From a virus, in the IMG/VR virus record IMGVR_UViG_3300002460_000084, positions 1-39,040 of that record: DNA of 39,040 nucleotides; one strand, given 5' to 3'. Shown in pieces: positions 3,739 through 32,223 of the stretch. The notes below the pieces were generated by a model that did not search any database, had not been told where the DNA came from, and saw only the letters and a list, made by a program, of their open reading frames with translations. Positions within the stretch are counted from its first letter, which is position 1, and each line of letters opens with the position of its first letter. The position numbers and the translations under genes are program-made.

Positions 3739-3791
3739 CCTGGCGGTAGGAAGCCCCGTTTGATTTCGCCAGGAATTGAATGGGGCTTTTT
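3739..3791 (+). terminator. interleaved-stem (pseudoknot-like) terminator/attenuator
   Basis: Two perfect 7-bp pairings interleave: CCTGGCG (3739-3745) with CGCCAGG (3767-3773), and AAGCCCC (3751-3757) with GGGGCTT (3782-3788), followed by a run of Ts to 3791. Either stem alone is possible, or both as an H-type pseudoknot with 5-, 9- and 8-nt linkers. The second stem plus Ts is a standard intrinsic terminator, so the first may delay or prevent it. It separates capsid genes from the methyltransferase/glycosyltransferase genes. A weaker GATAT/ATATC hairpin lies at about 3710-3727. Confidence 0.7.
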
Positions 3792-3795
3792 ACTT

Positions 3796-4443
3796 ATGCA
3801 GGCTATATTCTTTGAAGATTTTAAAAATTCATATATCCCAAATATCTTAGATGAAATATATCTTAAAAAAGTGTATGCTTCTTATTTTGAGGGTAAAAAA
3901 GACCTTACAATTATAGATTGTGGTGCTAATATAGGATTATTTTCACTTTACGCTTACGATTTTGCTAAAAAAATATATGCAATAGAACCATCAGAACAGC
4001 ATGTAAGAGTGTTAAAAAGGATGATTGATTTTAACAAGTTGGCAGACAAGGTTGTCGTGTGCCAGAATGCTATATTCTACGAGGACAAAAATATGGTTTT
4101 AGGACATAATCAGAACACCACCATGTTTTCTCTTAATAAAAATGTTATGGATAAGAGTCTTCCAACGGAAAATGTAAAAGCCGTTACTATGGAAACCTTT
4201 TTCAAGGAAAATGATATAAACCATGTAGACTTCTTGAAACTTGACATTGAAGGTGCGGAATGTGAGGTGGTTGGGGGCAAGGGATTTGAGAATGTTGCTG
4301 ATAGGATTGATGCTATGGTAGTAGAATGGCATGCATGGTCGGGAAGAAACCCCTCACAACTTGCCACAACTCTTGAAGATTATGGTTTTACAGTTACAGC
4401 GCTAAAAGCTGACGCAACCTTAATAGGAGCTGTGAGAAAATGA
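3796..4443 (+). CDS. FkbM-family SAM-dependent methyltransferase
   Basis: 215 aa from the ATG at 3796. An earlier in-frame ATG at 3760 lies inside the terminator structure and is unlikely. SAM-binding motif I reads IIDCGANIGLFS (residues 39-50), an acidic residue follows in AIEPSE (62-67), and FLKLDIEGAECEVV (146-159) is the diagnostic FkbM signature. FkbM enzymes O-methylate sugars or related metabolites, often in glycan clusters. The stop overlaps the next gene's start by ATGA, so the gene is coupled to two glycosyltransferases. A role in decorating a virion or host-surface glycan is inferred. Substrate unknown. Confidence 0.88.
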   Translation: MQAIFFEDFKNSYIPNILDEIYLKKVYASYFEGKKDLTIIDCGANIGLFSLYAYDFAKKIYAIEPSEQHVRVLKRMIDFNKLADKVVVCQNAIFYEDKNMVLGHNQNTTMFSLNKNVMDKSLPTENVKAVTMETFFKENDINHVDFLKLDIEGAECEVVGGKGFENVADRIDAMVVEWHAWSGRNPSQLATTLEDYGFTVTALKADATLIGAVRK

Positions 4444-5279
4444 AAAAGATACTTGTAGCTGTCGCTGACGCTAATAATCTAAAGCTTGCTAAAGGGTTTG
4501 AAAATTCCCTGCGAAAGTTCCATGATGAAGAAGAATTACCGTATTATCTTGTAACGGGAGATGAATTAGCAAAATACTTATCGGATGACCCCGCATTTTT
4601 CTACAGAGCAACACCTATTCTTGGCAAGAGATTCTTAAATGATTACGATGTTGTGATAAAAGTTGACGTAGACCAAATAGTTATGGGGAATCTGTCTTAT
4701 ATATGGGAGCAAGCCAATAGATACGATGTTGGTACAGTTTTAAATATTAATCGTATTGACCCACCTAAATATGGACTGGTTACGACATCAGTAATTGACG
4801 CGCCTGAATACTTTAATTGCGGACTTGTGGCAATGGCAAACAAGGACTTTGTTAATCATTGGGATAAACTTTGTCATTCTAAGTATTTTGATAGATTGCA
4901 GTATAGGGAACAGGACTTACTAAACATAATCTGTCATTTTGGAGAGTATAAAGTTAAATGTTTTGATAACTACGATCCTATAAATGGATATTTCTCATGG
5001 CATGGCTTGGTTGCAAAAGGCGAAACTGCAAACGCTTATTTAAAAGGGAAAGATGTTGTTATTCCTATTGATAAAACTGGATATCCTGATAGAGAGGTTA
5101 TATTAAAATTATGGCATACAGCAGGAGGTAATAACGAAACGAAAGTTAATTACAGAATATATTTTCCCGAAGAGATGATAAAACATATAGATTGGTTAAT
5201 TGGAGATAAGAAAAATGGATTGTGGGGTAATTTAGTTAATACTCATCCGGAGGCAATATATCATGGAAGAACAGAATAA
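4440..5279 (+). CDS. glycosyltransferase, GT-A fold (GT8-like)
   Basis: 279 aa. The N-terminus (MKKILVAVADANN) is a Rossmann-like strand. A DVD motif at residues 76-78 in VVIKVDVDQIVMG is the metal/nucleotide-sugar binding DxD of GT-A enzymes. EYFNCGLVAM (123-132) and REQDLLN (156-162) match the conserved acceptor-side and EQD motifs of GT8-like transferases. No membrane segment is seen, so it is likely cytoplasmic. It overlaps the methyltransferase by 4 nt and the next glycosyltransferase by 17 nt, so all three should be co-translated. Donor and acceptor cannot be told from sequence. Confidence 0.85.
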   Translation: MKKILVAVADANNLKLAKGFENSLRKFHDEEELPYYLVTGDELAKYLSDDPAFFYRATPILGKRFLNDYDVVIKVDVDQIVMGNLSYIWEQANRYDVGTVLNINRIDPPKYGLVTTSVIDAPEYFNCGLVAMANKDFVNHWDKLCHSKYFDRLQYREQDLLNIICHFGEYKVKCFDNYDPINGYFSWHGLVAKGETANAYLKGKDVVIPIDKTGYPDREVILKLWHTAGGNNETKVNYRIYFPEEMIKHIDWLIGDKKNGLWGNLVNTHPEAIYHGRTE

Positions 5280-6450
5280 AAAGAAATTGAGAGTTTGTTG
5301 GAATTCCAACGCACCGTATAGTCCATCGGGGTACGGCCAACAAATGGCTCAACTACTTCCTAAATTTGTTAAAGAGGGTTATCCTACAGCTTGTATAGCA
5401 TTCTACGGTCTGGAGGGCGGAATAATACAGCTTGATGGTATATGGATGTATCCGAGGATATCAAGTGAATGGGGAGATGATGCGATGATAAACCATTCCA
5501 AGCACTTCAAGGCTGATGTAGTGTTTACATTACAGGATTTATGGGTATTGGATATAAATACTCCAAGAACATTGGCGCAGACCGGTAGACGTTTTATACC
5601 TGTGGTTCCTATAGACCACGAGCCCGTACCGCCTGCTATTGTCGATAGACTAAGACACGCATACAGAATAATTACATATTCCAAATTTGGTTATGATGAA
5701 CTTAAAAGAATAGGTATTCATTCTACCTTTATTCCTCATACTGTTGATACATCCATAATGAAAAGGAGTGATAAAAAGGAAGCAAGAAAGAAATTAGGAC
5801 TTCCAGCGGACGCTTTCATATTTGGGATGGTTGGTGCCAATAAAGATAATCCTCCAAGAAAAGGATATCAACATGCTCTTGATGCTTTTGCAATGTTTAA
5901 AAAAAAATACCCTAATTCCGCAATGTATCTTCATACGATGCCAAGACTTCCGACCGGTTTCCCAATTTATGACTATGCAAAAGTCTTGGGAATAGAGGAG
6001 TCTATATTTACGCCTGAATCATATGAACATTTATATACAATTACACAGGCTGATATGGCAAGAGTATATTCTTTAATGGATGTATTCTTATTACCCTCGT
6101 TAAATGAGGGTTTTGGAGTTCCCCTAATTGAAGCTCAAGCTTGTGAGGTTCCCGTTATTGCAACCGACTTTACAGCTATGCGTGATCTTGTAATTGATGG
6201 TGTAACTGGATTTAAACTTAAAGTTAAAGAAAAGAAATATACACCACTGCAATCTTATATCGCCAATCCTGACACTGAGCATTTATATGAACTTATGATT
6301 AAAATGTATGAAATGAAGGAAGAAGAAAGGCTAGTGATGGGAAAGAATGCAAGAAAGTTTGTTGTTGAGAATTACGGTTTAAACCTCGTTTGGAAAAAAT
6401 GCTGGCGCCCTTTTCTTGAAGGACTTGAAGAGGAAATATACCGTAATTGA
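5263..6450 (+). CDS. glycosyltransferase family 4-like (GT-B fold)
   Basis: 395 aa, usual length for GT4. The N-terminal half holds a glycine-rich opening (SPSGYGQQMAQLLPKF, residues 20-35). The C-terminal nucleotide-sugar domain starts near FGMVGANKDNPPRKGY (187-202) and carries the EX7E element E282-GFGVPLI-E290 followed by EVPVIATD. A GGAGG site precedes the ATG inside the upstream gene. The stop TGA lies inside the -35 box of the promoter for the following tail genes. With the FkbM and GT-A genes it forms a sugar-attachment cassette within the virion operon; acting on virion proteins is inference. Confidence 0.9.
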   Translation: MEEQNKKKLRVCWNSNAPYSPSGYGQQMAQLLPKFVKEGYPTACIAFYGLEGGIIQLDGIWMYPRISSEWGDDAMINHSKHFKADVVFTLQDLWVLDINTPRTLAQTGRRFIPVVPIDHEPVPPAIVDRLRHAYRIITYSKFGYDELKRIGIHSTFIPHTVDTSIMKRSDKKEARKKLGLPADAFIFGMVGANKDNPPRKGYQHALDAFAMFKKKYPNSAMYLHTMPRLPTGFPIYDYAKVLGIEESIFTPESYEHLYTITQADMARVYSLMDVFLLPSLNEGFGVPLIEAQACEVPVIATDFTAMRDLVIDGVTGFKLKVKEKKYTPLQSYIANPDTEHLYELMIKMYEMKEEERLVMGKNARKFVVENYGLNLVWKKCWRPFLEGLEEEIYRN

Positions 6451-7325: not shown

Positions 7326-8057
7326 ATGGAAAGTAAAATCTGCATTGTATGTGGTAAGGTTTTCTACAAAAAACTAACAACAAGTAAGAAGGTTTGGTTT
7401 GGATCAAAATACTGTTCTCATAGTTGTCAACACATAGGAATAACCAAAAATGATAGAAATAGAATCTGTCTTGTGTGTAAAAAACATTTTCTTTGTGCGC
7501 CCTCTAACTTGAATGCCAAGTTCTGCTCAAGAGAGTGTATGGGAAAAGGTGTAGATTACACAAAACGTCCTCAATATATACCAGAAGCTCACGATGGTTC
7601 TTTAATAAAATGTGCGTGTGGTTGTGGAACTTCCATACCAATGTATGACAGGAAATTCCGTAGGAGGAAATATGTCGTTGGACATACTATGATAGGGAAA
7701 AAGATAATAAGGAAACAGATTACAATAGATAGACATAGGGAAACCATGATGAAAAATGGTAAATTAAGGGGCAAAGGTCATTGGAATTGGAGGGGCGGTA
7801 TTACAGATGAAATAAGACTGTTACGCCATACTCCACAATACAACAACTGGCGTTTTGCAGTGTACAAAAGAGACAAATATCATTGTATTTATTGTAATAA
7901 ACATTGTCATGAAAAGGACATAGTAGCTCATCACATAGAGGATTTTAAGAGCAATATAAAACTTAGATACGATATTGGTAACGGTGTAACCTTATGCAGG
8001 AAATGTCATCTTAATTTACATAGGAATTCGATCCAACTACAAGTAACACTCTTTTAG
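7326..8057 (+). CDS. HNH homing endonuclease with zinc ribbons
   Basis: 243 aa. Two Cys-rich zinc-binding modules occupy the N-terminal third (CIVCGKVF then YCSHSCQ; CLVCKKHF then KFCSREC), and a third Cys cluster lies at CACGCG. A linker with GKGHWNWRGG resembles NUMOD3-type DNA-binding repeats. The C-terminal nuclease reads CIYCNKHCHEKDIVAHHIEDF followed by NGVTLCRKCHLNLH, giving the H-N-H catalytic core between two CxxC zinc pairs. It sits between virion genes with no functional link to them, as expected for a free-standing homing endonuclease. Two more HNH genes occur in this window. Confidence 0.9.
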   Translation: MESKICIVCGKVFYKKLTTSKKVWFGSKYCSHSCQHIGITKNDRNRICLVCKKHFLCAPSNLNAKFCSRECMGKGVDYTKRPQYIPEAHDGSLIKCACGCGTSIPMYDRKFRRRKYVVGHTMIGKKIIRKQITIDRHRETMMKNGKLRGKGHWNWRGGITDEIRLLRHTPQYNNWRFAVYKRDKYHCIYCNKHCHEKDIVAHHIEDFKSNIKLRYDIGNGVTLCRKCHLNLHRNSIQLQVTLF

Positions 8058-20459: not shown

Positions 20460-21458
20460 TTAAGACTCCATTAAACCTAAATACTCCTCTTTCGTTATAG
20501 AATATTTCCATGCCATACATTCATCGGGATCGTGCGTTTTTCCAATCTCAGGATCAACACCACTAACGTAAACTCTTTCGGTTGATGGACAAGCGTACTT
20601 TAAAAAATATGCGGGTTGTGAAAATACTCCATCTATGAGGAACAATTCGTTACCTTTACCTGATTTACTTATCAAAATGGCGTTTGAGTCTTCTAATAGT
20701 TTCTCTGCCCCATATACCTTTAATGTAGCCATTCTTTGTTCTATGTTAATAAGTCCCATAACTTCCTTAAATGTCATTTTTCTTTGAACCACGGAAAACC
20801 ATAAATCACGGTCAAATTTTATTCCATGTAACCAGTACGTTTCTTTGTCCGCAAACTTTAAAGCATATTGAGTCTCATTGTGTAATCTTTTATCAAGTAA
20901 GGAGACTTCGGGGAAAGGTAATAAATATAATGTCTTTTTCGTCATAAAAATATATGCGTTTCCAGCATTTACAATATCTTTTATTGCTTCTATTTTATTC
21001 TTATTTCTTTGTAGTACTTTTAATTGAGGATAAAATTCATTAATAAATAATATCCAATTATTTTCGTAGAATTCAAAAATTGACGAAAACTCTGACCTAA
21101 GCTCTGACCAAAGCTCTGACGAAAACTCTGACGAAAACTCTGACGAAAACTCTGACGAAAACTCTGACAAAAACTCTGACGAAAGCTCTGACGAAAGCTC
21201 TGACCAAAGCTCTGACCAAAACTCTGACCAAAGCTCTGACCAAAACTCTGACCAAAGCCCCTCTGACCTAAGCTCTGACGAAAACTCTGACGAAAGCTCT
21301 GACAAAAACTCTGACCATTTACTAATCACCCTAACTTGTCTTTTCTTTATTAACGCTTCATTTAGTTTATTCCCAGCAGATTCTAAATCTCCTCTTTTAC
21401 CCAAAAGACTAAATTGGCTTCTCAAGTAGTTAATTCTATTCTCTTTAGTATTTTCCAT
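20460..21458 (-). CDS. DUF6745-like protein with a 4-residue repeat helix
   Basis: 332 aa. Residues about 48-126 are some 19 copies of a Ser-Glu-(Phe/Leu)-(Ser/Trp/Arg) unit (e.g. SELWSEFWSELWSE). The remaining part has LHNETQYALKFADKETYWLHG (two motifs, LHNE and YWLHG), a MATLKVYGAEKLL helix and a C-terminal CPSTERVYVSGV, DECMAWK block. These motifs and the preceding W/S-rich repeat fit the DUF6745 family as I remember it. Molecular function is not known. It directly precedes a conserved 103-aa partner gene upstream in the operon. Confidence 0.6.
   Translation of the reverse strand: MENTKENRINYLRSQFSLLGKRGDLESAGNKLNEALIKKRQVRVISKWSEFLSELSSEFSSELRSEGLWSEFWSELWSEFWSELWSELSSELSSEFLSEFSSEFSSEFSSEFSSELWSELRSEFSSIFEFYENNWILFINEFYPQLKVLQRNKNKIEAIKDIVNAGNAYIFMTKKTLYLLPFPEVSLLDKRLHNETQYALKFADKETYWLHGIKFDRDLWFSVVQRKMTFKEVMGLINIEQRMATLKVYGAEKLLEDSNAILISKSGKGNELFLIDGVFSQPAYFLKYACPSTERVYVSGVDPEIGKTHDPDECMAWKYSITKEEYLGLMES
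21080..21314 (-). repeat. 12-bp tandem repeat, about 19 copies
   Basis: The plus strand reads GACSAAARCTCT repeated about 19 times, coding on the minus strand for SE(F/L)(S/W/R). One unit is 15 bp rather than 12 near 21255-21269. Unit differences cluster in neighbouring copies, as expected from slippage or unequal exchange. Confidence 0.85.
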
Positions 21459-23477: not shown

Positions 23478-23781
23478 CGTATATCGTTACCTTATTGAAT
23501 GTCATCCGGATTTAAAACTTGTTGAATACGAGGCGCATAGATTTAATCATAAAGATGGGTTACCGATGGGATTTGTTTATACACCAGATTTTAGGTGTAC
23601 TACACACAACAACAAACAATTTTATATTGAAGTTTGCCCTGTGTTAGATGGTTATCACAGACATAATTACGATGTTATGAGGAAATATAGACCCGATATT
23701 AAACTACACGTCGTAAATAGTGAGGTCTATGCAGATATAAAGAAGAGATTTTCTAAGAAGACACGGGGTTGGGAATATTAA
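23467..23781 (+). CDS. possible PDDEXK-type nuclease-like protein
   Basis: 104 aa from the ATG at 23467 (a longer frame from 23317 would overlap the preceding gene by 160 nt). It contains an early Glu in EYEAHRF, VYTPDFRC (about 37-44) and FYIEVCP (52-58), an arrangement like the E...PDF...ExK core of small endonucleases. However, the expected catalytic Lys is a Cys here, so activity is doubtful. No strong ribosome binding site is visible, and it overlaps the upstream gene by 11 nt. Its 3' end overlaps the convergent HNH gene by 29 bp. Confidence 0.45.
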   Translation: MESNVYRYLIECHPDLKLVEYEAHRFNHKDGLPMGFVYTPDFRCTTHNNKQFYIEVCPVLDGYHRHNYDVMRKYRPDIKLHVVNSEVYADIKKRFSKKTRGWEY

Positions 23782-24235
23782 GTCTTGCAAACTCTCCAAA
23801 ATATTTCTTGTATGCATTATCTACAGCTTTAGCCGCCTTTAGTTTGGTTTTATAAATACCTAAGAAAATACTTTTTTGATTGTGTTCTATAGTGGCTGTC
23901 CATCTATCCACAAATTTTCTTTTTATTTTAGAAACTCCCTTAAAACCACTTGTATTATTTTTTCCTATCCTTCTATTCATTGAATTTTGTTGAATTGTAC
24001 ATATACGGAGATTGCACCGTCTATTATCCAATAAATCCCCATTTATGTGATCAACAATCATATTCTTTGGCGGGTTCAAGATATATCTATGTAAAAATAG
24101 GTGTTTTCTTCCTACTACGTCTACATATTTTCTACCATTATTATTCTGTAATCGCCAATTATATTTGAAAACCTTTTCTTTGTCTTGGGCATCTATCCGA
24201 AAATAAACATCTTTTTTATCTAGTTTTATAAGCAC
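23753..24235 (-). CDS. HNH homing endonuclease with AP2 DNA-binding domain
   Basis: 160 aa. Residues 50-85 hold the HNH core (LHRYILNPPKNMIVDHINGD, then NRRCNLRICTIQQN). Residues 95-155 resemble the plant-type AP2/ERF domain found in phage HNH enzymes (GFKGVSKIKRKFVDRWTATI, IFLGIYKTKLKAAKAVDNAY). It starts with GTG at 24235, 7 nt from an extended -10 box, so it may be leaderless. It is a free-standing selfish gene, as are the HNH genes at 7326 and 31690. Confidence 0.88.
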   Translation of the reverse strand: MLIKLDKKDVYFRIDAQDKEKVFKYNWRLQNNNGRKYVDVVGRKHLFLHRYILNPPKNMIVDHINGDLLDNRRCNLRICTIQQNSMNRRIGKNNTSGFKGVSKIKRKFVDRWTATIEHNQKSIFLGIYKTKLKAAKAVDNAYKKYFGEFARLNIPNPVSS

Positions 24236-24554: not shown

Positions 24555-24591
24555 ACACAAAAGCCCCTCCATTAAAGAGGGGCTTTTGTGT
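24555..24591 (+). terminator. strong bidirectional terminator
   Basis: ACACAAAAGCCCCTC (24555-24569) pairs perfectly with GAGGGGCTTTTGTGT (24577-24591) across a 7-nt loop. The A-rich left arm and T-rich right arm make it work in both directions. It closes the structured RNA on the minus strand and could end plus-strand transcripts from 24283. Confidence 0.9.
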
Positions 24592-24760
24592 TTCCTGTCC
24601 AGAATTTAGTTGATATAGGCTGGTTATTAATCAAAACCTCTGCACATTCATTTTGATTAGCGTAACCTCGTATGTGCATACTTATGGATTCCATTAGGAT
24701 AACGACCTAAATATTATCCCATTTGTGAGACTCTCAGCATATTATGTCTCCACCTATATC
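24555..24760 (-). ncRNA. candidate structured RNA with pseudoknot, no class recognised
   Basis: The minus-strand promoter at 24767-24796 predicts a start at about 24760. The RNA's 5' end would form a closing stem with 24611-24619 (TGATATAGG pairs with CCTATATCA at 24753-24761). Inside are: a 9-bp stem 24628-24636 with 24651-24659, extended by GGTTA/TAACC (24622-24626 with 24663-24667); a loop-to-downstream pairing TGCACAT (24641-24647) with ATGTGCA (24672-24678); GGATAA/TTATCC at 24697-24702 and 24714-24719; and GAGAC/GTCTC at 24727-24731 and 24746-24750. It ends at the bidirectional terminator. About 205 nt, no ORF. Class not identified. Confidence 0.6.
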
Positions 24761-25095: not shown

Positions 25096-25926
25096 ATGAA
25101 TATCGGTTACATAGCCCTACACAGAAAGATTTTAGATTGGGAATGGTATAAAAACACCAATGTTGTACGAGTCTTTTTTCATCTATTAATTAAAGCCAAC
25201 TTTGAAAAGAAAAAGTGGATGGGTATAGAAATTATGAGAGGAAGTTTTATAACTAGCTATGCAAATTTATCTTTTGAAACGGGTTTATCAATACAACAGG
25301 TACGAACTGCGATAAATAAGCTAAAATCAACAAGCGAAATAACAAGCATAGCAACAACCGAATACACCGTCATAACGGTGGTAAACTATGACGAATATCA
25401 GAATACTAACAAGCATAGCAACAAACGAGCAACAAACGAGCAACAAACGAGCAACAAACGAGCAACAACTACTAATAAAGATAATAAAGATAATAAAGAT
25501 AATAAAGAGAGAGAACACACTCTGGATACTCTTATAGATAAGAAGCATTGGAAACCCAAGCCGTATGCACCACAGGCAGTCCGTAGAATTGACGACGGAC
25601 TGCACCACGTGCCCAATAAGGATACACATATTAAGGATACACATATAAGGGAGAGAGAGTCCACACTCACGGTAGCACCTCTTAAAAGAAATAATATCGG
25701 TAAAGAAACTTTTGAGAGCATAGCTGACCGTTATGAAGTGCCTACCGATTTTGTTGAGGATTGTTGGGATTCTGCGCAAAACTGGCTTGATGCTAACGCT
25801 AAGGTAAAAAAGGATTATAAGGCCTTTTTATCTAATTGGGTCAAACGTGAACGTGCAAGTTATATTTTGAATGCTAAAAAATTACAAACCAGAAGAGGAG
25901 GTGTTTTCGATGCAAGAACTAAATAA
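25096..25926 (+). CDS. replication initiator / helicase-loader-like protein (O/DnaD type)
   Basis: 276 aa. Residues 1-100 form a winged-helix-like domain (YIALHRKILDWEWYKNTNVV; TGLSIQQVRTAINKLKST) of the type found at the N-terminus of phage replication proteins. A low-complexity linker (108-138) is encoded by DNA repeats that look like an origin. The C-terminal domain (200-260) has SIADRYEVPTDFVEDCWDSA and DYKAFLSNWVKRE, as in replisome-organiser proteins. It likely binds the origin and recruits the host helicase. The stop overlaps the next gene by 17 nt. Exact family not proven. Confidence 0.72.
   Translation: MNIGYIALHRKILDWEWYKNTNVVRVFFHLLIKANFEKKKWMGIEIMRGSFITSYANLSFETGLSIQQVRTAINKLKSTSEITSIATTEYTVITVVNYDEYQNTNKHSNKRATNEQQTSNKRATTTNKDNKDNKDNKEREHTLDTLIDKKHWKPKPYAPQAVRRIDDGLHHVPNKDTHIKDTHIRERESTLTVAPLKRNNIGKETFESIADRYEVPTDFVEDCWDSAQNWLDANAKVKKDYKAFLSNWVKRERASYILNAKKLQTRRGGVFDARTK
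25417..25469 (+). repeat. 11-bp tandem repeats (iteron candidates) in the initiator gene
   Basis: Four full copies of AGCAACAAACG (25417-25427, 25428-25438, 25439-25449, 25450-25460) and a partial fifth. The unit is not a multiple of three, so the protein repeat appears only each 33 bp. A further related copy of TAACAAGCATAGCAACAA lies about 70 bp upstream (25340-25357) and again at the start of the array. A one-helical-turn period is typical of initiator-binding iterons. Confidence 0.75.
25473..25508 (+). repeat. 9-bp AT-rich repeats, possible DNA unwinding element
   Basis: Four exact copies of TAATAAAGA lie at 25473, 25482, 25491 and 25500, directly after the iteron array. They contain only one G each. 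Such AT-rich tracts beside iterons are the usual melting site of phage origins. They encode the NKD repeats of the initiator's linker. Confidence 0.7.
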
Positions 25927-27547: not shown

Positions 27548-27828
27548 CAGAACTAAATTATAAATCAATAACAATGATAATAAACCTTATTGATAAAAGA
27601 GTTGAAGTTTTGGAAAAGGGAATATCCGGGGATATAGGTGGAGATAAGTATAAGATACGAGAATCAATGCTATCTTTAAGTGGCGACAAATCGGACGAAG
27701 AAAGGGAAAAAGATGATCTTGTTAAACTAAGACTTTCTTTGCTTGAAGAAATAAACAAAGCCAATTTTATATTCGGACTTCAAGTCGGTAACAAATCAAT
27801 AACTACATTAGGAAATACAAATGCTTAA
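27544..27828 (+). CDS. small helical protein of unknown function
   Basis: 94 aa, charged, helical, with likely coiled coil at both ends (IINLIDKRVEVLEKGISG; DLVKLRLSLLEEINKANF). It overlaps the nuclease and ParB-like genes by 4 and 8 nt, so it is tightly coupled to both. No family recognised. Confidence 0.5.
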   Translation: MTELNYKSITMIINLIDKRVEVLEKGISGDIGGDKYKIRESMLSLSGDKSDEEREKDDLVKLRLSLLEEINKANFIFGLQVGNKSITTLGNTNA

Positions 27829-28390
27829 AACTGTCGCAGAACTTGATCAGGAGAAATTTAGAATACCAATAGATGAATTGTCACCTGGGGATAACTATAA
27901 AAATGTAACAAGAGAGGCGACAGATAGAATAAAAAGATCAATGCTTGAAGAAATTGCACTAGGTAGTGATCCACAAGTAACACCACTCTTAGTTGATGCA
28001 AGAGCGGGTAGTTATGGAAAAATAATAGGTGGAAATCATCAATACTTTGCTATAAAAGAACTTATTAAAGAGGGTAAATGGCCTTATGAGAATAAGATAA
28101 AGGTTGAAGTAGCAAATCCGAAAGATGACAAACACGCAAAGATGCTGGCATTAAAACATAACACTCAATATGATATTGCAACAAAAGAAAGACTTGCAGA
28201 ATGGGGAGCAGTACTTGTAGAAAGCGGGTATGCACTTTCTGATATTCCTGTAATGACAGATATACCGGAACTTACTCTTCTTGATGTTATGGACTATGTA
28301 AGTCCAAGTGAAAAAGAAGAGATAAATAACATAACCGATAGAGAAAAAGAAGTAAAATGCCCAAATTGTGGACATAGTTTTTATGTATGA
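27821..28390 (+). CDS. ParB/Srx-like protein with C-terminal zinc motif
   Basis: 189 aa. The ParB N-terminal fold is suggested by an IPIDELSPGDNYKNVT start and GKIIGGNHQYFAIKEL (66-81), where GGNHQY is the family's GxHR-type nucleotide/metal motif. The C-terminus has CPNCGHSFYV, a zinc knuckle. ParB/Srx proteins in phages act as nucleases, CTP-using DNA-binding proteins or modification enzymes. It starts inside the previous gene (8-nt overlap). Role is not fixed. Confidence 0.65.
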   Translation: MLKTVAELDQEKFRIPIDELSPGDNYKNVTREATDRIKRSMLEEIALGSDPQVTPLLVDARAGSYGKIIGGNHQYFAIKELIKEGKWPYENKIKVEVANPKDDKHAKMLALKHNTQYDIATKERLAEWGAVLVESGYALSDIPVMTDIPELTLLDVMDYVSPSEKEEINNITDREKEVKCPNCGHSFYV

Positions 28391-28575
28391 AAAAACTTGT
28401 GTCTTGCCCAAACTGTGAAAAGAATGGGAGGAAAGAAATACTTGGAGAAATAGATAATGACAATAACTTCTCAATTATGAGATATTCAAATCAATATACA
28501 AAGATAATAAGTGATAGTTTTGAGGTAATGTGTGGGGTATGTGGTGAGGTAATATTTTACAGAAGGAAGCAATGA
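28387..28575 (+). CDS. zinc-ribbon small protein
   Basis: 62 aa with two CxxC pairs, CPNC (about 7-10) and CGVC (49-52), a classic zinc ribbon spaced by a mostly polar segment. It overlaps the ParB-like and the epimerase genes by ATGA. The first pair resembles the zinc knuckle at the end of the preceding protein. Function unknown. Confidence 0.5.
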   Translation: MKKLVSCPNCEKNGRKEILGEIDNDNNFSIMRYSNQYTKIISDSFEVMCGVCGEVIFYRRKQ

Positions 28576-29504
28576 AAGATAAAATAGCACTGATAACAGG
28601 TTTGAATGGATTTTTGGCAACAAATTTGGCCGGAGCTTTAATTGAAAAGGGTGTTAAGGTTGCGGGCATTCCAAGAGAAACATTAGCAAATCCGATGCTT
28701 CTTGATGATTTTGTTTCCGGTCTTTCCCCAAACTATATATTTCATTTTGCAGCGTATGGAAATCATTATGATCAAGATGATGATGATGAGATAGTTTCAA
28801 CAAATATATTAAAAACATATTTTCTTTTTACTGCGACAAAGTATATAGATTATGAGTGTTTTATAAATGTTTCAAGTTCATCTGTTTATGGTGCAAAAAG
28901 CACCCCAATGAAAGAGGATATGTTACTTGAGTCAGATACTATGTATGGTGTAACAAAGATAGCGAGCGAATCCATTGCAAGAGCTTTTGCTAAAAAATAT
29001 AACAAGCCGATTATTAATATCAGACCTTTTAGTGTATATGGACCAGGAGAGGCGGGGCATCGTTTCATACCCACATTAATAACAGCAATTAAAAAAGAAG
29101 AGATGGAATTTACACTCGATCCAAATGCCTCACATGATTGGATATATGTTGAGGATTTTATAAACGGTATATTTGCGGTCATTGCCAATGCAAAAGATTT
29201 CATAGGTAAATCCGTGAACATAGGAACTGGAAAACAACATACAAATAAAGAGGTAGCAGAAACTTTAGTATCTATTGCCAATGCCAAAAGCCCAATGAGG
29301 TTAAAAGAAACCACATTGTTAAGAAGTTATGATACTACGAACTGGATAGCTGATACATCGTTATTAAGACATGTAGGTTTTAGACCAAAGTTCACATTAA
29401 AAGAAGGGTTATCAAATACTTATGAGTATTATAATAATTTAAAACCAAGGAATGATCTTGATCGTGCTATGGAACAATCTTTAAGAATGGTTAATGCATT
29501 ATGA
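28572..29504 (+). CDS. NAD-dependent epimerase/dehydratase (extended SDR)
   Basis: 310 aa, normal length. ITGLNGFLATNL (8-19) is the GxxGxxG-type NAD site. NVSSSSVYG (99-107) and YGVTK (125-129) give the catalytic Ser/Thr and YxxxK. RPFSVYGPGE (151-160) is the typical follow-up motif of nucleotide-sugar epimerases/dehydratases. It likely modifies a nucleotide sugar. It is followed with 4-nt overlap by two transketolase pieces, so all may work on one sugar pathway feeding the glycosyltransferases at 4440-6450. The product is not known. Confidence 0.88.
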   Translation: MKDKIALITGLNGFLATNLAGALIEKGVKVAGIPRETLANPMLLDDFVSGLSPNYIFHFAAYGNHYDQDDDDEIVSTNILKTYFLFTATKYIDYECFINVSSSSVYGAKSTPMKEDMLLESDTMYGVTKIASESIARAFAKKYNKPIINIRPFSVYGPGEAGHRFIPTLITAIKKEEMEFTLDPNASHDWIYVEDFINGIFAVIANAKDFIGKSVNIGTGKQHTNKEVAETLVSIANAKSPMRLKETTLLRSYDTTNWIADTSLLRHVGFRPKFTLKEGLSNTYEYYNNLKPRNDLDRAMEQSLRMVNAL

Positions 29505-30148
29505 TTGTAAATAAGGATTTGAAAAGAAGAATAATTGAAATTTCATATAAACATAAACTTTCTCATTTAGGCAGTTGTTTGACTACCGTTGATTTAATAA
29601 AGGAAATATACGATGAAAAAAACGATGATGAAAAGTTTGTGCTATCTGCGGGGCATTCAGGATTAGCGTTGTATGTGGTATTAGAAAGTATTTATCCAAG
29701 AGTAGATGCGGAAGAATATATAAAAAGAGATGGAATACATCCTGATAGAAATAACGAAAGTGAAGAATTTATAGATTGTTCAACAGGCTCACTGGGGCAT
29801 GGATTACCAATAGCTATAGGTATGGCATTATCCGATAGAAATAAAAATGTATACTGCATGATAAGTGATGGCGAATGTGGAGAAGGCTCAATAAGCGAGT
29901 CTTTAAGGATAATGGCAGAGCATGAGATAAATAATCTATATGTATATATTAATGATAACGGTTATTCAGCATATGATAGAACAGTAAACAGAGTACGTTG
30001 GTTGTTATATTCTTTTCCTTCTTTGCATTCCAACATGAATCATAAAATAACAAATTGTGATTACCTACCTTTTCTTAAAGGCTTGGAGGGACATTATCAT
30101 ATTATGAATGAAAATGAATATGATTTTGCGTTAGGAATACTAGGATGA
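29501..30148 (+). CDS. transketolase N-terminal (TPP-binding) subunit
   Basis: 215 aa. STGSLGHGLPIAIGMAL (94-110) and SDGECGEGSISES (122-134) are the TPP-magnesium motif regions of transketolase, and INDNGYSAYDR (150-160) continues the metal site. Full transketolases carry three domains in about 630 aa; here only the PP domain is present. The following gene 30309-30833 supplies the Pyr domain, with a 55-aa gene between. Overlaps are ATGA, so a heteromeric two-subunit enzyme is expected. Confidence 0.87.
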   Translation: MIVNKDLKRRIIEISYKHKLSHLGSCLTTVDLIKEIYDEKNDDEKFVLSAGHSGLALYVVLESIYPRVDAEEYIKRDGIHPDRNNESEEFIDCSTGSLGHGLPIAIGMALSDRNKNVYCMISDGECGEGSISESLRIMAEHEINNLYVYINDNGYSAYDRTVNRVRWLLYSFPSLHSNMNHKITNCDYLPFLKGLEGHYHIMNENEYDFALGILG

Positions 30149-30312
30149 AATCAGCTGAGTTCAATAAATTAATAGATGATGTGATTGAAATATTATGGGA
30201 AATGGATGCTGTTGAAGTTCCATATGGAGGTGGTATTAGAGTATCGTATTCAGGGGATGAGTTAAAAACTGCAGTTGCAAGAATAAGAGCATTGGGGGCG
30301 GTTAAACAATGA
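30145..30312 (+). CDS. 55-aa gene between the transketolase subunits
   Basis: Begins MKSAEFNKLIDDVIEILWEM and ends GDELKTAVARIRALGAVKQ. It overlaps both neighbours by ATGA, so its place between the subunits is likely deliberate or recent insertion. Small, mixed, without a recognised fold. It may be a third component of the complex or an unrelated gene. Confidence 0.55.
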   Translation: MKSAEFNKLIDDVIEILWEMDAVEVPYGGGIRVSYSGDELKTAVARIRALGAVKQ

Positions 30313-30833
30313 ACCCAAAAGAAAGATTAAAAAATTATCCATTGCATGAATCTATACGAGGTTATTTTGGTTATGAACTTTATAAACATATGGAAAGAAA
30401 TAATGATACATGGCTTGTGTCCATAGATCTAGGCTATGGACTTTTCAACGCCCACTTTGAGGACTTTCCGGAGAGGTGCATCAACACGGGTGCAGCGGAG
30501 GAATCCGCTCTTGACATTTGTGTAGGTCTTGCACTTTCTGGAAAGCTCCCAGTGGTCTACAGTATCACACCATTTCTTTTGTGGAGAGCTGCCGAAGTAA
30601 TAAGGCTTTACATAGATCATGAAAATATACCTGTAAAGCTTATTGGTAGTGGGAGAGATAAGGACTATTCAATAACTGATGGGTTTTCCCATGACGCTAC
30701 TGATGCGAAGGATTTACTTGCTTTGTTTCCAAATATCGCTGAATATTGGCCTGAATCAAAGGAGGAAATTGCATGGGTAGTAAAGCAGATGTTGGACAAC
30801 GGCTATCCTACGTTCGTATCGCTTAAGAGATAA
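30309..30833 (+). CDS. transketolase Pyr-domain subunit
   Basis: 174 aa. VSIDLGYGLFNAHFEDFPER, then INTGAAEESALDICVGLALS (58-77), where the Glu in GAAEES (E64) is the likely cofactor-activating Glu of the Pyr domain. GSGRDKDYSITDGFSHDATD follows with the conserved DGxSHD segment, and the protein ends with PTFVSLKR. The C-terminal third domain of full transketolases is absent. Together with 29501-30148 it should form the active site at the subunit interface. Two-carbon transfer to a sugar is predicted. Confidence 0.85.
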   Translation: MNPKERLKNYPLHESIRGYFGYELYKHMERNNDTWLVSIDLGYGLFNAHFEDFPERCINTGAAEESALDICVGLALSGKLPVVYSITPFLLWRAAEVIRLYIDHENIPVKLIGSGRDKDYSITDGFSHDATDAKDLLALFPNIAEYWPESKEEIAWVVKQMLDNGYPTFVSLKR

Positions 30834-31689: not shown

Positions 31690-32223
31690 ATGCCTAGCGG
31701 TGTTTATAGGAGATCTTTACAAAATAAATTAAATATAAGTAAAGCCTCTATGGGAAGAACTCCATGGAACAAAGGAAAAATTGGTATATATAGTGATGAG
31801 ACTAGATATAAAATGGGGGCTAGTTTCAGGGGCAAAAAACAACCAAAACTAGCTGAATTTAACAGAAAAAAGATTTTTACTGAAGAATTAAGAAGGAAAA
31901 TGTCTTTAAGACAAAAGGGTGAGAAGGGTTCGAATTGGCGAGGAGGGGTTGGTATAGTTAATGTAAAGATCAGAAATTCTATTGAAGGTAAACTATGGCG
32001 TGAGGCAGTTTTTGCTAGGGATGGTTGGATTTGTCAAAAGTGTTTAATAAAAGGTGGAGTTCTTAGAGCACATCATATTTATAGCTTTAATAAATATAAT
32101 AATATGCGATTTGATATACATAACGGCGTGACATTATGCAATAAGTGCCATAAAGAGTTTCATTCTAAATATGGTGTGAGAGATAATAATTTGGGGCAGT
32201 GCGACAAATGGCTACTGAGATAA
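31690..32223 (+). CDS. HNH homing endonuclease with NUMOD3-type repeats
   Basis: 177 aa. SKASMGRTPWNKGK and SFRGKKQPKLAEFNRKK, with KGEKGSNWRGG, are NUMOD3-like DNA-binding pieces. The HNH core is RDGWICQKCLIKGGVLRAHHI followed by NGVTLCNKCHKEFH (CxxC pairs and catalytic His), here split for length. It lies between terminase small and large genes, starting 1 nt after one and overlapping the other by 16 nt. Homing endonucleases often sit beside terminase genes. Confidence 0.88.
   Translation: MPSGVYRRSLQNKLNISKASMGRTPWNKGKIGIYSDETRYKMGASFRGKKQPKLAEFNRKKIFTEELRRKMSLRQKGEKGSNWRGGVGIVNVKIRNSIEGKLWREAVFARDGWICQKCLIKGGVLRAHHIYSFNKYNNMRFDIHNGVTLCNKCHKEFHSKYGVRDNNLGQCDKWLLR

Follow-up and report, generated by a model that had tools for sequence, protein, structure and literature searches.

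Replication origins that lie within the gene of their own initiator are already established for lambda O, TP901-1, SPP1 gene 38 and the rep gene of pSK41. In TP901-1 and Tuc2009, direct repeats inside the gene of the replisome organiser are bound by this protein and act as ori (PMC8965321). In SPP1, oriL is located in gene 38 and consists of direct repeats and an AT-rich DNA unwinding element (DUE); gp38 binds, and gp39 and gp40 load the helicase (PMC6316719). Lambdoid phages have their ori in O, the middle of which contains iterons and then an AT-rich tract (PMC7466680). In pSK41 rep, four central Rep boxes are situated between the parts encoding two DnaD-like domains; the N-terminal domain binds them, and ori encodes the central part of Rep (PMC5703833). 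A stretch NDNDNDNDN between the modules of a replisome organiser has been read as a possible protein linker (PMC12403621).

Here a similar locus is described from a virus record of 39,040 bp, the whole of which was analysed and is called the window. Short tandem repeats inside a DnaD-like gene very probably form the replication start site of this phage, built into its initiator gene, as judged from the sequence and from a comparison covering about 300 related phage genes in all. Few uncultured phages have a known replication origin; in the present case the sequence alone reveals the likely position of the origin and part of the rule by which it is recognised.

Initiator gene and neighboring features

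The features of the locus are summarized in Table 1. The 276-aa protein matches the profile of PHROG 2514 ('DnaD-like helicase loader') with E 4e-32 over aa 2-140, which leaves its C-terminal part outside the match; PHROG 7498, 186 and 345 were also matched. For PF09681 (Phage_rep_org_N, Pfam) a score of 18 bits (E 0.0029) was obtained, below the gathering cut-off of 23.3 bits. Relatives found by tblastn over aa 1-123 originate from Vibrio, Cellulophaga, Staphylococcus and gut phages, and the first 120 or so residues share about 33-60% identity with proteins of Vibrio, Cellulophaga, Shewanella, Staphylococcus and gut phages. The search of the locus against plasmids delivered no match.

The AlphaFold2 model of the N-terminal domain (mean pLDDT 91.7, pTM 0.83) contains helices at aa 21-33, 55-62 and 66-78 and a wing formed by strands 82-86 and 91-95. 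The conserved domain ends with NYDEYQ, and the copies of an 11-mer start directly after it. The C-terminal module is conserved with the relatives L366 and L358 (46%, E 3e-10 to 5e-10) and with L603, and has few relatives; it matched no named family or named helicase-loading domain, with sub-threshold hits only, and is presumed to be the part that interacts with the helicase or its loader. In Vibrio phage jenny 12G5 and Shewanella phage 3/49 a DnaB-like helicase gene is located directly 3' of the initiator gene. None was recognised among the window genes examined, and the phage of the window is therefore presumed to use the helicase of its host.

Table 1. Features of the initiator locus (coordinates of the window)
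Feature	Coordinates	Strand	Basis
Initiator / replisome-organiser gene, DnaD-like, 276 aa	25096..25926	+	PHROG 2514 profile match; tblastn relatives
Codons of N-terminal winged-helix DNA-binding domain (aa 4-103)	25105..25404	+	AlphaFold2 model
Tyr55 codon, start of HTH helix 2	25258..25260	+	Second-ranked co-varying residue; first residue of helix 55-62
Codons of predicted recognition helix (aa 66-78)	25291..25329	+	AlphaFold2 model; co-variation of aa 67
Codon of aa 67 (Gln)	25294-25296	+	Top co-varying residue with iteron positions 7-8
Upstream degenerate iteron cluster, codons beside and within the wing	25323..25361	+	Own-iteron matches at 25323, 25347 and 25350; family-wide enrichment
Main iteron array, 11 bp x 4.7, unit AGCAACAAACG (family register: ACGAGCAACAA)	25417..25468	+	TRF; reshuffling test
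AT-rich tract, 9-bp TAATAAAGA x 4, presumed DNA unwinding element, strand nearly C-free	25467..25508	+	TRF; nearest-neighbour free energy
C-terminal module (aa 194-252)	25675..25851	+	Conservation with L366, L358 and L603

Several other features of the window were recorded. A 12-bp repeat of 19.5 copies (21081-21317), located in a minus-strand gene (20460-21458) and encoding a repeat peptide of the WSEF/SSEL type, has a period that is a multiple of three and is probably a protein-level repeat. Sugar-related genes occur at 3760-6450 and 28572-30833; by eye, the set comprises an FkbM-like methyltransferase, two glycosyltransferase-like genes and two ORFs resembling transketolase halves, and it further includes an NDP-sugar epimerase (PHROG 540, E 1e-53). 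Three ORFs resembling HNH-type endonucleases were likewise noted by eye (7326-8057, 23753-24235 and 31690-32223), one of which separates the minus-strand early genes from the initiator region, as was a strong terminator-like hairpin (AAAAGCCCCTC...GAGGGGCTTTT, 24565-24593) upstream of the initiator operon.

Repeats of the window

The 11-mer and 9-mer repeats of the initial annotation are present inside the DnaD-like gene as error-free copies: TRF reported AGCAACAAACG with period 11 and 4.7 copies and, at 25473-25508, TAATAAAGA with period 9 and 4.0 copies, both with 100% match. The former is the best array of four 11-bp units in the window (identity 1.00; next best 0.56), and no second iteron array was found in the window. 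Copies of the 11-mer with one mismatch (5 found, 0.51 expected) occur outside the array solely at 25350-25360. When synonymous codons were reshuffled with the protein held fixed, the observed 11-bp self-match was reached in none of 20,000 trials, and the 11-bp repeat is therefore a repeat of the DNA and no by-product of the peptide. At the protein level the linker reads KRATNEQQTSN and is repetitive as well.

The 40 bp from 25467, which adjoin the array, are the least stable of all 39,001 40-mers of the window (nearest-neighbour free energy -37.6; mean -49.0), in agreement with the proposed order of iterons followed by an unwinding tract.

Survey of relatives

An initial search for relatives had been seeded with the peptide NKDNKDNK of the AT-rich tract, which biased the sharing of that tract; the survey was extended with the N-terminal domain only, and the 11-bp statistic is independent of the tract. 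Most relatives were gathered by the DNA-binding domain alone, with the linker excluded from the search, and others by whole-protein search. After phages and contigs of earlier searches had been added and sequences with at least 80% identity removed, 178 distinct relatives were left. A 20-sequence alignment was dropped as a scanning model since it was too diverse. One record among the relatives, PP511318.1 (L020, L616), carries a Microviridae taxonomy line, yet its genome has 35.8 kb and encodes terminase, portal and tail sheath; the record is thus misclassified.

Coding sequence alone favours periods that are multiples of three. In the 75 bp after the domain of the 178 relatives, the excess of self-matches is 0.199 at lag 11, 0.144 at lag 22 and 0.112 at lag 33, and about zero or negative at lags such as 9, 10, 13 and 15. 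Among lags 7-16, the best one in the linker is 11 in 145 of 178 relatives and 12 in a further 22, compared with 11 in only 11 of 177 for a downstream control stretch of the same loci. The protein-preserving null is exceeded at p<0.05 in 81% of the relatives, and the best 4 x 11-bp array of the whole locus falls in the linker in 135 of 163 loci. An absence of the repeats from related phages with the same gene had been named in the initial annotation as evidence against an origin; the period is present in the majority given above and in 112 of 138 held-out relatives. A gut-phage subclade (L202, L211, L212 and L216) and L252 possess the domain and lack the linker array, so that their origin must lie elsewhere; the DNA fetched for L202, L205, L211, L212, L214, L215, L216 and L252 contains no clear 11-bp array at another position.

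Upstream of the array, in the stretch 75-13 bp before the domain end, the own repeat of each phage has a mean rank of 0.86 among foreign repeats (controls 0.53 and 0.52; 277 relatives). The enrichment peaks at -67 from the domain end, has a shoulder near -60 and is strongest over about -67 to -58. Together with the degenerate own-type copies of the window, this makes the left edge of 25,334 given earlier for the element a reasonable one.

The weakest 40-mer of the locus lies within the linker in 44 of 163 loci (4.5 expected), and the longest C-free run has a median of 39 in the linker region as against 18 in the control, the tract usually being a C-poor strand. Solobacterium phage SMO_1P retains both elements although its ORF terminates within the iterons, which leaves the AT-rich tract non-coding. 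Since this tract persists beyond the stop codon, the comparison indicates that it is the DNA and not the linker peptide that is conserved. Together with the reshuffling test, SMO_1P bears out the earlier view of the peptide as mostly a by-product of the DNA. The locus is a clear case of an overlapping DNA element that shapes a coding sequence.

Co-variation of initiator and iteron

In the family register the repeat reads roughly (A/G)C(A/G)A-NNNN-CAA. Position 9 is C in 151 of 152 arrays. Positions 1-3 and 5-8 differ between phages and mostly agree within an array, which in sequence terms is the pattern of a co-evolving binding site. When mutual information was calculated for all columns of the N-terminal domain and all iteron positions, aa 67 with positions 8 and 7 ranked first. 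In 72 independent nearest-neighbour pairs, a change of aa 67 is accompanied by a change of positions 7-8 (p 1.3e-6, first of about 400 tests); second in rank is aa 55 with positions 5-6 (Fisher p 1e-4, 72 nearest-neighbour pairs). In the AlphaFold2 model, which was made after the ranking, the two HTH helices are 55-62, which begins with aa 55, and 66-78, in which aa 67 comes second.

The rule was applied to a held-out set of 138 relatives with less than 80% identity to the first set and to each other, 125 of them with a usable array, whose register was fixed with positions 5-8 masked. Lys67 goes with GG at positions 7-8 in 19 of 19 cases, against 2 of 106 for all other residues (p 1.6e-20), and Gln67 with AA in 36 of 53, against 12 of 72 (A at position 7 in 51 of 53). 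Arg67 goes with GA in 21 of 37, against 4 of 88, a count lowered by the sometimes ambiguous phase of Arg-type arrays (ACGACCAACAA fits two registers). The prediction thus held on unseen sequences. These sequences share collections and clades with the first set, and the counts are not fully independent; the conservative figure is that from a tree built without the column of aa 67, in which all 6 contrasts of Lys and Gln on supported branches have the expected direction and 0 the opposite one. The initiator of the window fits the rule (Gln67, AA), and Cellulophaga phage phi18:3 is of the Lys type, with the array GGGCAAGCAAA. In all 4 cases of Asp at this position (L242, L246 and two held-out arrays; register set blind), positions 7-8 are CC, a number too small for a claim.

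The co-variation is strong indirect, yet independent, evidence that the initiator probably reads the repeats in its own gene. Along with the family-wide period, it supports the initial placement of an origin inside an O/DnaD-like initiator gene.

Proposed origin and alternative explanations

We consider it highly likely that the window carries a theta-type origin inside its own initiator gene, which would function by binding of the winged helix to the iterons, opening of the AT-rich tract and loading of a helicase, with specificity set through aa 67 and aa 55. The layout, together with the cited precedents, is the basis on which physical binding, unwinding, helicase loading and origin activity are proposed here. 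The N-terminal winged helix would bind the contiguous 11-bp iterons, one per helical turn, and since neighbouring iterons are one helical turn apart, the bound initiators would all lie on one face of the DNA. The weaker upstream cluster, in the codons of the DNA-binding domain, would be bound too. The resulting nucleoprotein complex would open the adjoining AT-rich 9-bp repeats, and the C-terminal module would deliver or recruit a helicase loader or helicase, leading to loading of the replicative helicase. Specificity would reside at the N-terminal end of each HTH helix, namely in aa 67 and probably in aa 55; Gln67 would read A-A at iteron positions 7-8 where, in relatives, Lys would read G-G and Arg G-A.

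A minimum of the GC skew at the site had been suggested as a check. The detrended minimum of the window, at 25,698, is indeed 237 bp from the site, but those of five relatives are 3-7 kb from the array (four at about 3 kb), often at a switch of gene orientation; GC skew was therefore regarded as uninformative and dropped as evidence for the origin.

An unlikely alternative is that the repeats are an operator, through which the protein binds its own coding sequence and represses or times its synthesis, replication starting elsewhere. Autoregulation is common among initiators, and evidence of binding does not by itself establish origin function; however, the repeats are found some 320 bp into the gene, next to the DNA with the lowest stability in the window, and the layout is that of experimentally tested origins (PMC6316719, PMC8965321, PMC7466680). 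A low-complexity linker rich in N, K, Q and T that grew by replication slippage, with the DNA repeat as an incidental result, is very improbable. Flexible linkers do expand by slippage, and the peptide is repetitive, but the 11-bp period is not a multiple of three, the protein-preserving null is rejected in the window and across the family, the repeat sequence follows the recognition helix, and the elements of SMO_1P continue beyond the stop codon. As a full explanation slippage is refuted by period, null, co-variation and SMO_1P; it may be a way in which repeat copies are added. Very improbable too is that a different phage protein binds the repeats as a site for packaging, recombination or partition. 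Tandem repeats also mark pac and centromere sites, and a ParB-like gene is present at 27821-28390, but if a foreign protein were the binder, the repeats would not co-vary with the recognition helix of the gene in which they lie.

Beyond the window, the origin reading extends to a wider one that appears fairly likely: a large superfamily of initiators, in phages and prophages of many bacterial phyla, would carry a self-contained specificity cassette within one gene, consisting of a winged helix, contiguous 11-bp iterons, a second cluster in the codons of the DNA-binding domain and a rule for aa 67 (Gln-AA, Lys-GG, Arg-GA, perhaps Asp-CC). If true, hundreds of uncultured phages could have their origin and its specificity read from the sequence. 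The family also provides natural initiator pairs that differ in specificity, with which the reading of iterons by winged helices can be tested.

Comparison with known systems

Neither the family-wide 11-bp layout of the iterons nor a recognition rule for the initiator family of the window is described in the papers searched, which included few subscription ones. Homology of the N-terminal domain to TP901-1 Rep, 80alpha gp20 and lambda O was not detected by single sequence or profile, nor to r1t ORF11 by profile.

PHROG 2514 is matched by lambda O as well as by the protein of the window, with largely different parts covered. The initial comparison with lambda-type phages stands for the layout of an origin in the initiator gene. 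It does not extend to the initiator domain, which is different, or to the iterons: those of lambda are 18-bp inverted repeats spaced about 20-24 bp apart (best lag 23), an arrangement typical of lambda-type origins, in contrast to the contiguous 11-bp direct repeats of the window.

Rep of plasmid pSK41 (RepA_N family), a protein with DnaD-like folds, resembles the initiator of the window in that its boxes lie in the middle of the gene, but belongs to a plasmid and not to a phage. N-terminal domain structures of RepA-type initiators align over nearly the whole model (4pql, Z 8.5; 4pt7, Z 8.5; 5kbj, Z 8.0), with 6% identity; winged helices of other kinds reach similar Z scores (CRP about 9; unrelated ones up to 9.4). 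Going by their titles, we take these three entries to be RepA_N initiators.

Compared by description, oriL of Bacillus phage SPP1 is like the window in combining direct repeats and an AT-rich DUE inside the gene of the origin-binding protein; SPP1 has a second origin, oriR, unlike the window, in which a single array was found. In phage 80alpha a putative origin is annotated inside gp20. The lactococcal P335 phages TP901-1 (rep/ORF13) and Tuc2009 (Rep2009) also carry their repeats inside the initiator gene, with a period of 15 bp in TP901-1 instead of 11 bp, and the best PHROGs of the P335 phages (186; 1163/5708) differ from that of the window. The layout of the window is found again in orf11 of r1t, where GGAACC occurs every 11 bp four times and is followed by an AT-rich TAAGAATAGAT tract.
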